This document shows positions 24,300 to 29,480 of a stretch of DNA of 64,000 bases, in pieces. The notes below the pieces were generated by a model. It ran no database searches and was not told the origin of the DNA. It was given only the letters and a program-made list of their open reading frames with translations. The DNA is from Verrucomicrobiaceae bacterium UBA2429 (GTDB lineage Bacteria; Verrucomicrobiota; Verrucomicrobiia; Verrucomicrobiales; Verrucomicrobiaceae): positions 1 through 64,000 of the forward strand of contig DDQZ01000069.1 in NCBI GenBank assembly GCA_002343505.1. The letters run 5' to 3'. Every line of letters starts with the position of its first letter. Within the stretch, counting starts at the first letter, position 1. Made by a program: the position numbers and the translations under genes.

Positions 24300-25412
24300 A
24301 TGAAGACCCCAGCCCTCCTGATCCTCTTGCTCATCACCCTGAACGTCTCCGCGCAAGACCCCAAGCCAGCCGCAGCCCCCAAGGCGGAGACGCCCAAGCC
24401 CGCGCCTGTTCCCGCGCCAAAGGCCGAGCCTGCCAAGCCCGCCGAAGCCAAAAAAGACGAACCCAAGCCAGCACCGGCTCCCGCCACCCCTCCCAAGCCC
24501 GATCCTGCCAAAACCGCTGAAACCAAAAAGGAGGAACCCAAACCCGCACCGGCTCCAGCGCCAGCACCCGCGCCGAAACCTGAACCCGCCAAAACCGCCG
24601 GGGCCAAGAAGGAGGAGCCAAAGAAAGCCGAGCCACCGCCGCCGCCCAAGCCGGTGCCCGTCTTCAAGGACAAGGCCCTCGAAGACGCCGTGCGCCGCCA
24701 GGTCTTCGCCAAACGCGAGAGCAAAGACCCGCTCACCGCCGAGGATGTCGCCAATGTCGCCATCATCGAAGGCAAAAACATGGGCATCACCGATCTCTCC
24801 GGCCTGGAAAAATGCGCCGCCCTGGCCTCGCTGACTTTGCCGGGAAACAAGATCACCAGCCTCGCCCCGCTCAAGGGCTTGGCGAGGCTTCAGTTCCTCG
24901 ACCTCGCCGGCAACCAGATCTCAGACATCTCCCCCCTTTCCGAGTGCAAGGCTCTGCAATACGTCGAGCTGACCGGCAACAAGGTCGTCAATGTCGCTCC
25001 GCTCGGCGGCATCCAGTCGCTCACCTCCCTGTATCTGGCGGGCAACCAGATCGAGGATGCCACCCCGCTCTTTAAGCTGCCCAAGGTCTGGACGCTTTAC
25101 CTCGAAGGCAACAAAGTCAGCAACCTGGAAGGCATCGGCTCCATGAAATGGCTCTCCATGCTCTCGCTGAAAGGCAACAAGGTAGCCGGTCTCACCCCGC
25201 TCGAGCCTTTGACCGACCTCCAGTTCCTCTTCCTCGAAAACAACCAGATCACCGACATCGCCCCGCTGCACCGCATGTGGAAAAAGGACAGCGACGGAGC
25301 CCGCGAGTGGGCGCCGTATTGCCAGATCCACCTCGGCGGCAACCCGCTCGGCGAGGAGGCGAAAAAGCACGCCGAGGAACTCAAAACCGCCGGTGCCCGG
25401 CTCACCTTTTGA
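24300..25412 (+). CDS. Exported leucine-rich repeat protein with Pro/Lys/Ala stalk
   Basis: A 370-residue protein with a signal peptide (MKTPALLILLLITLNVSA). Residues about 20 to 120 form a low-complexity stalk of KPAPAP, AKPAEAKKDEP and similar units. Residues about 150 to 345 are seven or so LRRs of the SDS22/internalin type (LASLTLPGNKITSLAPLKGL, LQFLDLAGNQISDISPLSEC, LTSLYLAGNQIEDATPL). It may lie in the periplasm or at the surface and bind another protein. It precedes the Zn-ribbon MotA/TolQ operon by 171 bp on the same strand. Confidence 0.85.
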   Translation: MKTPALLILLLITLNVSAQDPKPAAAPKAETPKPAPVPAPKAEPAKPAEAKKDEPKPAPAPATPPKPDPAKTAETKKEEPKPAPAPAPAPAPKPEPAKTAGAKKEEPKKAEPPPPPKPVPVFKDKALEDAVRRQVFAKRESKDPLTAEDVANVAIIEGKNMGITDLSGLEKCAALASLTLPGNKITSLAPLKGLARLQFLDLAGNQISDISPLSECKALQYVELTGNKVVNVAPLGGIQSLTSLYLAGNQIEDATPLFKLPKVWTLYLEGNKVSNLEGIGSMKWLSMLSLKGNKVAGLTPLEPLTDLQFLFLENNQITDIAPLHRMWKKDSDGAREWAPYCQIHLGGNPLGEEAKKHAEELKTAGARLTF

Positions 25413-25569
25413 CGTTTTCACCGGACGCCGCATCCTTGAATCAGCGCCAGACCCCATGAAATGCGCGGAAAGCGCGTCTTCATGGCACAAAAGAGCTTGT
25501 TCTTCCGGCCTCTGGCCGCTTGAATCGTCAACAGCCGATTTTCAAACCCACCCACACCAACCCAAACCC

Positions 25570-25575
25570 AAGGAG
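25570..25575 (+). promoter_or_regulatory. Ribosome binding site of the MotA/TolQ-like gene
   Basis: AAGGAG stands 8 bases before the GTG at 25584. Clear Shine-Dalgarno sites are rare in this window, so this one supports the GTG start and suggests strong translation. Confidence 0.7.
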
Positions 25576-25583
25576 AACCGATT

Positions 25584-27011
25584 GTGAAATTCAAGTGCCC
25601 GACGTGTGACATGCAACTGAAGGCCGAGCCTGAAATGGCCGGCAAAATCGTCCGCTGCCCCGGTTGCAACACCAAGCTCAGCATTCCCGCCACCATCGGC
25701 GCGCCTCCCCCACCCTCAGGCCTGCCGCCGCCGCCCGACGGCGTGCCCGCCACGGCCAGCCCTCCACCCCAGGATGCCAGCGCGCCCGGCGAGCAGCCAG
25801 GGTCGCACCAGGAGTACCAGGAGTCTTACCAGCAGCAGAGCGCCCGCGGCGGCTGGGAGGAGGCCGATCCGGCCAACGCCAACATTTTCGCCGCCCTTGG
25901 CATCGGGCTCGTGCTCACCCTCACATGGTACGGCATCCTTTATCCCTTCGGCGTCGGCAAATATGGCGACCCAGCCGCCAGCACGCTCGACTACATTCAC
26001 GATCTCTTTTACGAGCGCAGCTGGGTGAACATGCTGGAGACCTTCTTCTTCTTCTTCGCCATCGCCATCCTCTGGCTCAAAGGCAAAAAGCTGCGCCATC
26101 AAAAGGACGCCATGTACCTCGACGTGCTGCCCACCGACTTCGGCCAGGAGATCAACGGCCAGAATGTCGGCAGCTTCGTGGACCACCTCTACGGCCTGCC
26201 CGGACGCCTGCGCGACAGCATGATGGTCAACCGCATCCGCAAAGGCCTGGAGCTTTTCGAAGTGCGCCAGAACAACTCCGAGGTGAACACCATGCTCCAG
26301 GCGCAGAGCAACATTGACAGCGCCCGCATCGGCGGCAGCTACTCCCTCGTCAAAGTCTTCCTCTGGGCCATCCCCATCCTCGGCTTCATCGGAACCGTCC
26401 TTGGCTTGTCACAGGCCATTGGCAGCATTGACCTGAGCGACACCTCCGATCTGGACAAAATCATGGGATCCATCGGCAACGTCACCAGCGGCCTCGGCAC
26501 CGCATTCGACACCACCCTGCTCGGCCTCGTGCTCGCCCTGTTCCTGAACTTCCCCATCAGCGCCCTCGCCAAGTCCGAGGATGACAATCTCAACAACATT
26601 GACGCCTTCTGCAACGAAGTGCTCCTGCCCCGCCTCAACGACGGCGGCGGAGTGGCCGGCGGCGACACCGGCGGCCTCATGGACACCCTCGTCAAAGCCG
26701 TGGCCAACGCGCAGAAGGAGTTCCTCGTGGACCTCAACGCCCTCTCCGCCAAGATCAAGGACTACGCCGACAACCTCGACAAACGCGCCGCCTCCCACCA
26801 GGAGCGCGTGGACAGCGAGTTCGCCATGACGCTCAACCGCATGAGGGAGGACCTCACCAACGCCGTCAAAGACAGCGTCAAGACCACCACCGAGTACACG
26901 CGCGCCCTCTCCACCGGCATCCAGGGCCTCAACAACGTGCTCACCGAGCTTGGCGGCAAGCAAATCCTCATCCACCAAGTCAAAAAGAAAGGCTGGTTCA
27001 GCAGGGACTAA
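25584..27011 (+). CDS. Zn-ribbon-fused MotA/TolQ/ExbB proton channel protein
   Basis: A 475-residue inner-membrane protein. Residues 1 to 35 form a zinc ribbon with C5, C8, C25 and C28 (CPTC...CPGC). A Pro-rich linker spans about 40 to 70. Four membrane helices are predicted: about 101-123, 150-165, 256-280 and 303-326. Helices three and four carry the family motif: AIPILGFIGTVLGLSQAIG and GLGTAFDTTLLGLVLALFLN. The C-terminal 140 residues are a long helix. The family forms pentameric proton channels that drive a partner by ion flow. The partners are probably the next two genes (21 and 12 bp spacing). Which process it powers is unknown. Confidence 0.88.
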   Translation: MKFKCPTCDMQLKAEPEMAGKIVRCPGCNTKLSIPATIGAPPPPSGLPPPPDGVPATASPPPQDASAPGEQPGSHQEYQESYQQQSARGGWEEADPANANIFAALGIGLVLTLTWYGILYPFGVGKYGDPAASTLDYIHDLFYERSWVNMLETFFFFFAIAILWLKGKKLRHQKDAMYLDVLPTDFGQEINGQNVGSFVDHLYGLPGRLRDSMMVNRIRKGLELFEVRQNNSEVNTMLQAQSNIDSARIGGSYSLVKVFLWAIPILGFIGTVLGLSQAIGSIDLSDTSDLDKIMGSIGNVTSGLGTAFDTTLLGLVLALFLNFPISALAKSEDDNLNNIDAFCNEVLLPRLNDGGGVAGGDTGGLMDTLVKAVANAQKEFLVDLNALSAKIKDYADNLDKRAASHQERVDSEFAMTLNRMREDLTNAVKDSVKTTTEYTRALSTGIQGLNNVLTELGGKQILIHQVKKKGWFSRD

Positions 27012-27032
27012 CCCTTTGTCACTCAACCCATC

Positions 27033-27923
27033 ATGGCACAGCGGCGCGCGTCATCCGAGAACGAAGTCTCGCTCTTCCCCTTCCTGAGCATCCTCGCATG
27101 TCTCATCGGGGCGCTCGTGCTCATCATCGTCGTTCTCGTGGTGGCCCAGGCCGGCAAGGCCGAGGGTCGCACCGCCGAGGAGATCCGCATGGCCCAGGAC
27201 TACCAGCGCATGCAGAAGGAGATCGAGGAGCGCAAGGAGCTGGACTTGATCCTCAAGGAAAAACTGGCCGAGCTGGAGAAACTCCAGGAGGAGGTCAAAG
27301 AGAAGGAGCAGCGCTACATCAAGCTGCGCAAGCTGCTCGACTCCTCCAAGGAGATCAAAGAGCAGAACCTGCTCATCAGCCAGCAGCTCCAGAAGGAGCT
27401 CGACAGCCTGCTGGTGGAAATAGACGGCCTCAAAAAGCAGCAGACCGAGTCGAAAACCGAGATCGAAAAACTGCTCGCCGAAATCAAGGCGCGCCAGGTG
27501 CCGGAGGACAAGAAAGTGCCGCCCGTCGTTGTGCAGCCCTCAGGCTCCGGCATGGCGGAGAGCACCAGGGTTTACTTCGTCGAGTGCAGCGCCGGAGCCC
27601 TCAAAATCCTCGGCGCCTGGGGCGAGGACTACCGCCTCGGCGCCACCGCCGAGATCGTCGTGGCCGACGCCGCCTACAACCACTTCCTCTTCGAGGTGGC
27701 CAAGGACAAAAACTCCCTCATTCTCTTCCTCATCCGGGACGACGGCCAGGGCCCCTTCAACAACGGCGCAGGCCGCGCTTCCAACGATTACAAAATCCGC
27801 GTCGGCAAGCTGCCCATCCCCGGGCGCGGGCAGCTCGATCTCGCCCTTTTCGACAAGTATCGCGGCAAGATAGACCCTCCCGTCCCTGGCGCGCCCGTGC
27901 CCGAGCCGGCAGCCAACCCCTGA
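27033..27923 (+). CDS. Coiled-coil membrane partner B1 of the MotA/TolQ-like channel
   Basis: A 296-residue protein: a short N-terminus, one membrane helix (about 14 to 40, FLSILACLIGALVLIIVV), a coiled coil of about 100 residues (LKEKLAELEKLQEEVKEKEQ), and a C-terminal domain (about 175 to 285). Its place matches ExbD/TolR/MotB partners. Where the channel-lining Asp is expected, B1 has Ser (the aligned block is LSILACLIG against MDAVTNVVG in the next gene). It may therefore be a structural or regulatory partner rather than the proton carrier. Confidence 0.75.
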   Translation: MAQRRASSENEVSLFPFLSILACLIGALVLIIVVLVVAQAGKAEGRTAEEIRMAQDYQRMQKEIEERKELDLILKEKLAELEKLQEEVKEKEQRYIKLRKLLDSSKEIKEQNLLISQQLQKELDSLLVEIDGLKKQQTESKTEIEKLLAEIKARQVPEDKKVPPVVVQPSGSGMAESTRVYFVECSAGALKILGAWGEDYRLGATAEIVVADAAYNHFLFEVAKDKNSLILFLIRDDGQGPFNNGAGRASNDYKIRVGKLPIPGRGQLDLALFDKYRGKIDPPVPGAPVPEPAANP

Positions 27924-27935
27924 CCCGCACAGATC

Positions 27936-29480
27936 ATGGCCAAGAAAAAACAGGACTCCTCCGAGTTGAATCTCGACTCCCTGATGGATGCCGTCACCAA
28001 TGTCGTCGGCGTGCTCATGATCGTCTTCGTCATGATGGCGATCAACACCGCCAAGATGGTCCAGAAAATCCTCACCGACCTGCCCCCCGTCACCGAGGAG
28101 CAGCACCAGCAGATGGTCCAGCAGATCAAAGAGCTGCCACCGCCGCCCGCCGACCCAGAAAAAATCGAGGAGCAGAAAAAAAAGGCTCAGCAGGACTTGA
28201 AAAAAGTCGTCGAGGAACTCAAAACCATAGACACATCCGAGATGGCCGCTCAGATGAAGTTCATGGACTTGGATACCTTCCGCAAGCAGCTGGAGGAGGC
28301 CAAAAAGACCCGGGAGAAAGAAAAAGGCGAGGTGGACAAGCTCATCACCGAAATTGAGCGGCTCAAGGCCCTGCTCGATGAAACCCCCGTCTATCAGCCG
28401 CCGCCGCCCACCTATGTCCGCCTGCCCAACCCGCGCCCCTACCCGGAGAAGCCCAACGAGACGCGCATCCTCGTCGCCCGCCAGGGCGTGGTGCATTTCA
28501 ATCAGGACGCATTTTTAAAACCCATTCTCGACGGACTCGACAAAGCCAGAAACCAGCTTTTTTACCGCGACGCCAAGATCGAGCCTTTCGCCGACATGCT
28601 CGGCAAAATCTACGGCACCCCCGCCGCCGCCCAGCAGGCATGGGCGGAGATCGCGCCCTTTGTCGGCACCTTCCAGATGGAAAACGTGGCCAAAGCGCAC
28701 AAAGCCCTCGCAGCCGCCGACATGCCCGCCACCCGCCAGGTGCTCACAGCCCTGGGGGACATATCCATCGTCGTGCGTTCCAACATGGACGCGGTCGCCG
28801 AGGCCATGGTCGCCGCCGCCACCGGCGACTTGACCAAATGGACCGCGCTCGATCCCTCGCGCGATCCGACCAAACCCACCATCCAGGCCGTTGCCGGAGA
28901 GGGCAGGATCACTTTCACCTGGGGTTCCCAGGCCGTGGATGTGAAAAACAACACGCGCGACATCCAGAGCTACTTCATCAAGGACCTGGCCGGCCTGGAC
29001 AGCATCAAGGGCAAGAGCAAAGACAAAGTCATTTACGACGCCTTCGCCATCCGCTCCATGCTCGAGCGCGCCGCCACGAACCCGACCTTCAGCGGCCCCT
29101 TCACCCTCGTGCCCGCCATCCGGCCCGGCGCCACCCTGGTGCAGATGCAGCTCACACCGAAGGCCGGCGCGGGAGAGACTCTCGACCAGATGCGCAACGA
29201 AGGCTCCTCCTACCAGCGCATGCTGCGCGCGCTCAAGGCCGACCCGAACGGCGTGGCCCTCTTTCAGGTCATGAACAACGCCTTCGACACCTACCTGGAG
29301 GCGCGCAAGATCGCCGACGAAACTGGTGTGCCCGCCTCCTGGGAGTTTCTTGCGGGACTTGATCTGACTCTCAATGTCACCGGCTACGAGGTGCAGCGCT
29401 TCGCCCTCGTGCCAGGCGCCGCGCGCGGCAAAGGCGACCCCGGCATCCGCATCGGCGCGCCGAAACGCACGCTCGACTGA
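27936..29480 (+). CDS. Coiled-coil membrane partner B2 of the MotA/TolQ-like channel
   Basis: A 514-residue protein with one membrane helix near residues 22 to 42. The helix starts SLMDAVTNVVGVLMIVFVMM, in which D18 matches the proton-binding Asp of ExbD/TolR/MotB. After it come a coiled coil (about 48 to 155) with a Pro-rich break, and a large C-terminal domain (about 170 to 510) of unknown fold with no OmpA-like peptidoglycan-binding motif seen. It ends the operon. The two different partners suggest an asymmetric stator. Confidence 0.75.
   Translation: MAKKKQDSSELNLDSLMDAVTNVVGVLMIVFVMMAINTAKMVQKILTDLPPVTEEQHQQMVQQIKELPPPPADPEKIEEQKKKAQQDLKKVVEELKTIDTSEMAAQMKFMDLDTFRKQLEEAKKTREKEKGEVDKLITEIERLKALLDETPVYQPPPPTYVRLPNPRPYPEKPNETRILVARQGVVHFNQDAFLKPILDGLDKARNQLFYRDAKIEPFADMLGKIYGTPAAAQQAWAEIAPFVGTFQMENVAKAHKALAAADMPATRQVLTALGDISIVVRSNMDAVAEAMVAAATGDLTKWTALDPSRDPTKPTIQAVAGEGRITFTWGSQAVDVKNNTRDIQSYFIKDLAGLDSIKGKSKDKVIYDAFAIRSMLERAATNPTFSGPFTLVPAIRPGATLVQMQLTPKAGAGETLDQMRNEGSSYQRMLRALKADPNGVALFQVMNNAFDTYLEARKIADETGVPASWEFLAGLDLTLNVTGYEVQRFALVPGAARGKGDPGIRIGAPKRTLD

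Follow-up and report, generated by a model that had tools for sequence, protein, structure and literature searches.

A candidate inner-membrane motor of Verrucomicrobiaceae with two unlike axle proteins and two membrane-core versions that are not found mixed

What kind of machine is encoded by an operon that joins one MotA/ExbB-type channel protein to two unequal ExbD/TolR-like partners, only one of which carries the canonical ion-carrying Asp? The question is raised by three consecutive genes of Verrucomicrobiaceae bacterium UBA2429, here called channel, B1 and B2, which lie in the 64,000-nucleotide stretch of contig DDQZ01000069.1 that was analysed as a whole (the window). To our knowledge, in all 5:2 motors of solved structure a single axle protein is present twice, and whether rotation needs one or both of its Asp sites is still an open question. 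A preliminary description of this DNA had proposed a channel with two unequal ExbD-like partners, and this proposal is borne out, as the four-Cys MotA/ExbB channel, B1 Ser19 and B2 Asp18 are all present. We found that the membrane parts of the three proteins come in two versions, type S (that of the window) and type D, and that the two are never found mixed. The genes and positions concerned are as follows (TM, transmembrane segment).

25584..27011, + strand: four-Cys MotA/ExbB-type channel subunit, 475 amino acids, GTG start (Pfam MotA_ExbB, 7.9e-12)
25596..25667, + strand: four-Cys zinc-ribbon-like motif of the channel (C5, C8, C25, C28), predicted from topology to be cytoplasmic
26037..26039, + strand: channel Glu152, close to where TM2 begins; type S has Glu here and type D Asn
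26511..26516, + strand: channel Thr310-Thr311 of TM4; position 310 is Thr in type S and Ala in type D, 311 is invariant
27033..27923, + strand: B1, putative ExbD/TolR-like axle, 296 amino acids, with a TM helix (15-43), a long helix (48-154) and, at about 168-263, a TolR-like periplasmic domain
27087..27089, + strand: B1 Ser19, where ExbD/TolR have their Asp; type D has Asp here
27936..29480, + strand: B2, putative ExbD/TolR-like axle, 514 amino acids, with a TM helix (13-47), broken helices (54-149) and a TolR-like domain that contains a helical insert
27975..27977, + strand: B2 Asp14; Val in type D
27987..27989, + strand: B2 Asp18, the canonical ion-carrying position; Asp in 88/88 operons having B2

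Type S combines Ser19 of B1 with Asp14 and Asp18 of B2 and with Arg145, Glu152, Val258 and Thr310 of the channel, whereas type D has Asp in B1, Val14 and Asp18 in B2, and His145, Asn152, Ala258 and Ala310 in the channel. We pooled 140 operons from overlapping sets (68 genomes of the family, outgroups and named loci), which yielded 93 with distinct B1; a divergent relative with Ser in B1 and Ile at channel position 152 (G192) was excluded from the 93. Among the 86 distinct operons that were fully typed, 27 are S, 59 are D and none is a hybrid, and the other seven, which lack B2 or part of the channel, do not contradict this pattern. Position 14 of B2 is Asp in 27/27 type S and Val in 59/59 type D operons. 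At eight channel columns the two types (25 S and 38 D channels) share no residue, and position 152 is Glu in 25/25 S and Asn in 38/38 D; channel Thr271 is kept in 93/93 operons. The choice between Ser and Asp at position 19 of B1 varies inside one genus, and this change never comes alone. In a set of 120 of the 650 B1 relatives, skewed to near relatives, the 119 proteins besides the window's own comprise 108 with Ser and 11 with Asp. The no-hybrid switch yields a list of residues probably in functional contact: B1 19, B2 14 and channel 144-147, 152, 154, 258 and 310. Asp14 of B2 is a second acid, absent from the preliminary description. The latter had envisaged a stator with one working proton site, which is apt in so far as the canonical Asp of type S is found only in B2; in its simple form we reject the idea, because Asp14 and Glu152 also accompany type S, and type D has Asp in both partners.

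Among close relatives, trees and pairwise identities suggest that species exchange the membrane parts of channel, B1 and B2 together, in matching sets. With the type-separating columns removed, the best channel tree has 4 type changes. Trees of the parts behind the membrane helix have 8 changes for B1, at least 6 of them forced by starred branches, so that the B1 periplasmic part does not follow type, and 16 for B2, 12 of them forced. On starred branches of the B2 periplasmic tree, 11 independent pairs switch B1, B2 and channel jointly (sign test p 0.001), and on the B1 tree six independent pairs switch all three in step (p 0.031). In the clearest S-D pairs, the ribbon, the channel tail and the periplasmic domains are 85-93% identical and the membrane segments of the three proteins 44-70%. 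For L229 (S) and L252 (D), amino acid identity along the channel is 85% in the four-Cys part, 44% in TM1, 46% in TM2, 70% in the cytoplasmic loop, 70% in TM3, 69% in TM4 and 93% in the tail; it is 52% in the TM helix and 91% in the periplasmic part of B1, and 47 and 90% in those of B2. Two sets of S-D pairs were compared, one of 12, in which the periplasmic part of B1 is 81-91% identical, and one of 8, in which it is 75-91% identical. By comparison, 10 same-type pairs are 86-100% identical in TM2, 83-100% in the B1 helix and 82-100% in the B2 helix. The replacement of a single contiguous block was considered as the cause of the switch and rejected, as the periplasmic part of B1 sits between two switching axle segments. 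The membrane segments of the three proteins stay together as a unit despite the intervening coding sequence. The simplest cause would be that channel, B1 helix and B2 helix fit one another in one complex, so that mismatched sets die out; the mosaic itself we infer to have arisen by recombination.

The genes themselves are also firmly linked. A channel ortholog is present in 65 of the 68 family genomes (in G051 only as a 149-residue piece) and B1 and B2 in 64 each, with one class A copy per genome, contig-end pieces aside. B1 adjoins the channel in 61/64 genomes and B2 adjoins B1 in 63/64; the remaining three and one, respectively, have the genes on different contigs. Three genomes (G034, G062 and G063) lack channel ortholog, B1 and B2 jointly. 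The preliminary description had named, as one of two refuting observations, neighbourhoods in which B1 never accompanies the channel gene; this is not what is seen. The nearest named relatives are Prosthecobacter and other Verrucomicrobiaceae. We surveyed the neighbours of 80 named loci, naming genes by reading their sequences rather than by scans with hidden Markov models (HMMs). Upstream we encountered ribBA, ribH and nusB in 14 loci (ftsY in 13), plsY in 6, and bamA, skp and lpxD in 5. The 14 ribBA-ribH-nusB loci comprise 6 S, 6 D and 2 untyped operons, so both types stand behind the same genes. Downstream, no recurrent effector-like gene was recognised in the 80 loci by such reading, the commonest group occurring in 5. 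The operon gives the impression of a permanent cellular machine, perhaps one of the envelope, rather than of a defence island.

The reading that we favour, with a probability of about 0.62, is an ion-driven motor of the 5:2 type whose pore would hold a B1-B2 heterodimer in which, in type S, only B2 has the canonical Asp. Such a motor would be a housekeeping machine of the inner membrane, of the MotAB/ExbBD/TolQR class, with five channel subunits encircling an axle in which one helix comes from B1 and one from B2. Ions flowing along an Asp-Thr path would turn or shift this axle, and the long periplasmic helices would pass the movement to the TolR-like domains, whose target is probably the cell wall or outer membrane. 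Its membrane parts come in the two matched versions: S, with the canonical Asp (plus Asp14) in B2 only, Ser in B1, and Glu152 and Thr271/Thr310/Thr311 in the channel; and D, with Asp on both axle helices, Asn at 152 and Ala at 310. Support comes from the adjacency and joint absence of the genes, the absence of hybrids, the joint switching, the mosaic, the neighbours shared by both types and, as described below, the PFLD motif, the TolR match and the one-Asp pairs of class C (17/17). A fuller version is more tentative. It holds that the heteromeric axle is obligate and that two interchangeable, mutually incompatible cores may pass between species, each as a matched set of parts from three proteins, while the ends in cytoplasm and periplasm remain with their species. 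The core of the window would then run on a single canonical axle Asp, in five large steps per turn rather than ten, with acidic function partly moved to B2 Asp14 and channel Glu152 and possibly with sodium in place of protons. Type S would use five ions per turn instead of ten, if Asp14 and Glu152 give no substitute. In any event the evolutionary pattern of the operon is unusual: nature has repeatedly varied axle pairs between one and two canonical Asp in the same operon, with the same neighbour genes and among close relatives. The S and D operons are a natural system for comparing one-site with two-site axles and perhaps ion choice.

Family searches place the channel more clearly than its partners. 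It scores 45.5 bits against Pfam MotA_ExbB (PF01618; cut-off 22.9) and is a member of that family, with an architecture, predicted from its sequence, that runs from the N-terminal four-Cys motif through four membrane segments to a long helix at the C terminus. Cys 5, 8, 25 and 28 are all kept in the 89/89 class A channels covering them. No zinc-ribbon HMM reached its cut-off on the channel in Pfam and NCBIfam scans, so the zinc ribbon of the preliminary description stands as a conserved Cys motif and not as a family match. For B1 and B2, searches of Pfam, NCBIfam and PADLOC gave no substantial match; Pfam ExbD (PF02472) is not among their matches at E up to 1, which leaves them outside that family. 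A PF02472 search of the window's genome hits 10 other places, the motor operon not among them; away from the operon, tandem ExbD matches are seen on contigs C112 (37377-38240) and C90 (20894-21699). In model comparison, TolR is the best structural match for the periplasmic parts of both B1 and B2; most rows beneath TolR/ExbD in the structural-match tables (VIA) are unrelated folds, and we accordingly treat the match as a hint. Foldseek against the PDB gave nothing useful (best B1 match 7.1e-3, a ribosomal protein chain; best B2 match 0.15). B1 weakly matches the N-terminal part of B2 (E 1.8e-4 in the window, a value that coiled coil may inflate), and the helix of type D B1 contains PFLD, the motif of ExbD/TolR. 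A profile search of the channel against the PDB ranked mostly coiled coils above PomA (E 0.003), and in this weak alignment channel Thr310-Thr311 fall on PomA T185-T186.

A search at the level of the phylum added other channel classes and 56 further operons in which both partners are readable, their residues being read by eye. None of the 56 is without Asp in both partners. In class B, found beside GYF-type genes (by reading), 27 of 32 operons have Asp in both B1 and B2, 3 have Ser/Asp and 2 have Asp/Gly. In class C, B1 lacks an acid in all 17 readable operons (6 Cys, 6 Asn, 3 Ala, 2 Ser), and B2 has Asp in 17/17. Class C' (3 operons) and a planctomycete-like class (3 operons) are Asp/Asp, and L201 is Ser/Asp. 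By alignment, Glu152 is present in 18/18 class C channels, as in 25/25 of type S, and in 0/38 of type D, 0/33 of class B, 0/3 of class C' and 0/4 of the planctomycete-like class.

Several observations weigh against our reading. There is no strict rule linking Ser in B1 to Glu152, which is absent from the three class B pairs with Ser in B1, from L201 and from G192. The channel tree has only 2 type changes if starred branches alone are counted, and likewise 2 with all columns kept; the supports of all the trees are of the quick kind (SH-aLRT, the Shimodaira-Hasegawa-like approximate likelihood ratio test), and the trees of the periplasmic domains do not stand for the species phylogeny. The S-D pairs were selected for high periplasmic identity, and in one of the 8, L223-L239, the contrast is weaker (periplasmic identity 75 and 68%). 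In same-type pairs, TM1 is 64-98% identical, with a mild dip to 64-73% in 3 of the 10. Third-codon identity is low throughout (31-76% in S-D pairs), too low to date any recombination, so that the mosaic is read from amino acids. Finally, co-switching could also arise if B1 touched the channel from outside, and TM2, the site of Glu152, is peripheral in MotA-type channels.

The best surviving alternative is that S and D are ion-selectivity states, Na+ for S and H+ for D, the Ser/Asp change in B1 merely following and having no bearing on the number of working axle sites. According to PMC10374538, sodium stators conserve three Thr (PomA T158, T185 and T186); type S has Thr at each of the aligned positions, and type D has Ala at that of T185, like the proton stators compared in the same paper. 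Those proton stators also lose T158, whereas the corresponding Thr271 is invariant here, and the PomA alignment is weak, as mentioned. Since Thr-Thr is also found in 32/33 class B and all class C channels, whatever their B1, we regard this alternative as unlikely; it is in any case compatible with a heterodimer. PomAB itself differs in being flagellar and in that one axle protein is present twice (PMC10374538).

Rather improbable in our estimate is an ordinary 5:2 motor with a B2 homodimer as its axle and with B1 as a TonB/TolA-like force transducer docked outside the pentamer. The type S B1 without Asp and the position of Glu152 in the peripheral TM2 would suit it. Transducers with vWA domains that dock from outside have indeed been proposed for motors of this group of phyla (PMC12204202, in its section 8). 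The marks of a TonB/TolA-like protein are missing from B1: the SHLS motif occurs in 0/93 of its N termini and His in 0/93 of its membrane helices. Moreover, type D B1 has the ExbD-like PFLD helix, the periplasmic domain of B1 is best matched by TolR/ExbD, and the switch takes in Thr310, aligned with an ion-site Thr of PomA.

It is still more doubtful that two motors share one channel protein, which would pair with a B1 homodimer in one and a B2 homodimer in the other. The precedent is AglRQS of Myxococcus, also one channel protein with two MotB/TolR-like partners: AglRQ and AglRS could each in theory form channels, and PMC9389320 leaves hetero- versus homodimers undecided. According to the same paper, both AglQ and AglS have the conserved Asp, whereas a B1 homodimer would have none at the canonical position in type S or in the 17 readable class C pairs; no gliding genes were recognised at the operon described here. 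The strict no-hybrid linkage between B1 and B2 cores is unexpected if the partners never meet, though a shared channel could yield some linkage. A variant of the Zorya anti-phage motor is hardly credible: ZorAB shares the channel superfamily and ZorA2 is the best PADLOC match of the channel (2.2e-9), but the channel misses the NCBIfam ZorA cut-off by far (best 27.3 versus 100 bits), for ZorB, B1 reaches only 0.021 and B2 has no match, no Zorya or other recurrent effectors were seen by reading (without HMM scans) at the 80 loci, and the near-universal presence of the operon in the family, often beside housekeeping genes, is unlike a mobile defence island.

The heterodimeric motor that we prefer resembles ExbBD/TolQR in its MotA_ExbB-family channel, in the PF-L-D motif of the type D B1 helix and, by model comparison, in the TolR-like periplasmic domains of B1 and B2. 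It differs in its two unequal axle genes, in the Ser that replaces Asp in one of the type S partners, in the length of the periplasmic helices, and in the four-Cys motif and long C-terminal helix of the channel; no TonB or TolA was seen adjacent. Pairs of unlike tolR-like genes have already been noted in print for motors of this group, and a complex has been modelled. The vWA-linked motor of PMC12204202 has a downstream vWA transducer, whereas no gene recurs downstream in most of our 80 loci, whose neighbours were not scanned with a vWA model; the section of that paper on vWA-linked motors does not mention swappable cores or loss of Asp from one partner. The word heterodimer is absent from the text of PMC12505986, a classification of flagellar and non-flagellar relatives. 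Within the open-licence literature, our searches brought up nothing on this operon, on motor cores that can be exchanged or on axle pairs in which one partner has lost its Asp.

The operon is preceded on the same strand by a gene for a leucine-rich repeat (LRR) protein:

24300..25412, + strand: LRR protein with a signal-peptide-like N terminus, 370 amino acids, matching LRR families; a chance neighbour outside the motor

The order on the + strand is thus LRR gene, channel, B1, B2, and the preliminary description had suggested a possible link between the LRR protein and the other three. Conservation of the neighbourhood extends to channel, B1 and B2 and leaves out the LRR gene. A strong LRR match is present in 60/68 genomes (E <= 7.5e-72), among them G034, which has no channel ortholog; it adjoins the channel only in the window's own genome (G000) and its closest relative (G043). 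As it does not adjoin the channel in the other 58 of the 60, we rejected the LRR protein as a part of the system, although contig ends can conceal adjacency in fragmented genomes. A Pro/Ala/Lys-rich stretch close to its N terminus (24357-24655) is likely a flexible linker behind the signal peptide. A promoter scan found 0 sites, with 0.5 expected by chance, and terminator-like sites lie on the - strand only.

Some of the more distant relatives show features of their own. The three class B operons with Ser in B1 (L203, L207 and L209) have a second B2 Asp four residues past the canonical one and a change from Ala to Ser at channel position 307, which is another coupled three-protein change; L221, a class B operon of the Asp/Asp kind, likewise has the second B2 Asp. 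In L091 and L212, also of class B, B1 has Asp and B2 has Gly in place of its Asp; here it is the other partner that has lost the acid. The class C motors are those of L082, L085, L086, L089, L090, L092, L093, L182-L187 and L189-L192; two of them, L082 and L092, lie beside lpxA-like genes (by reading), a hint that they may serve the envelope. A second paralog of the channel, again with two unequal axle genes, occurs in L081, L088, L095, L202-L221 and others. Its neighbours in L081 and L088 are a GYF-like protein, a large protein resembling ATPases and a long one starting MAWQLIYTSAPRLL (names by reading), and this paralog with its two axles may represent a separate, uncharacterised motor system.

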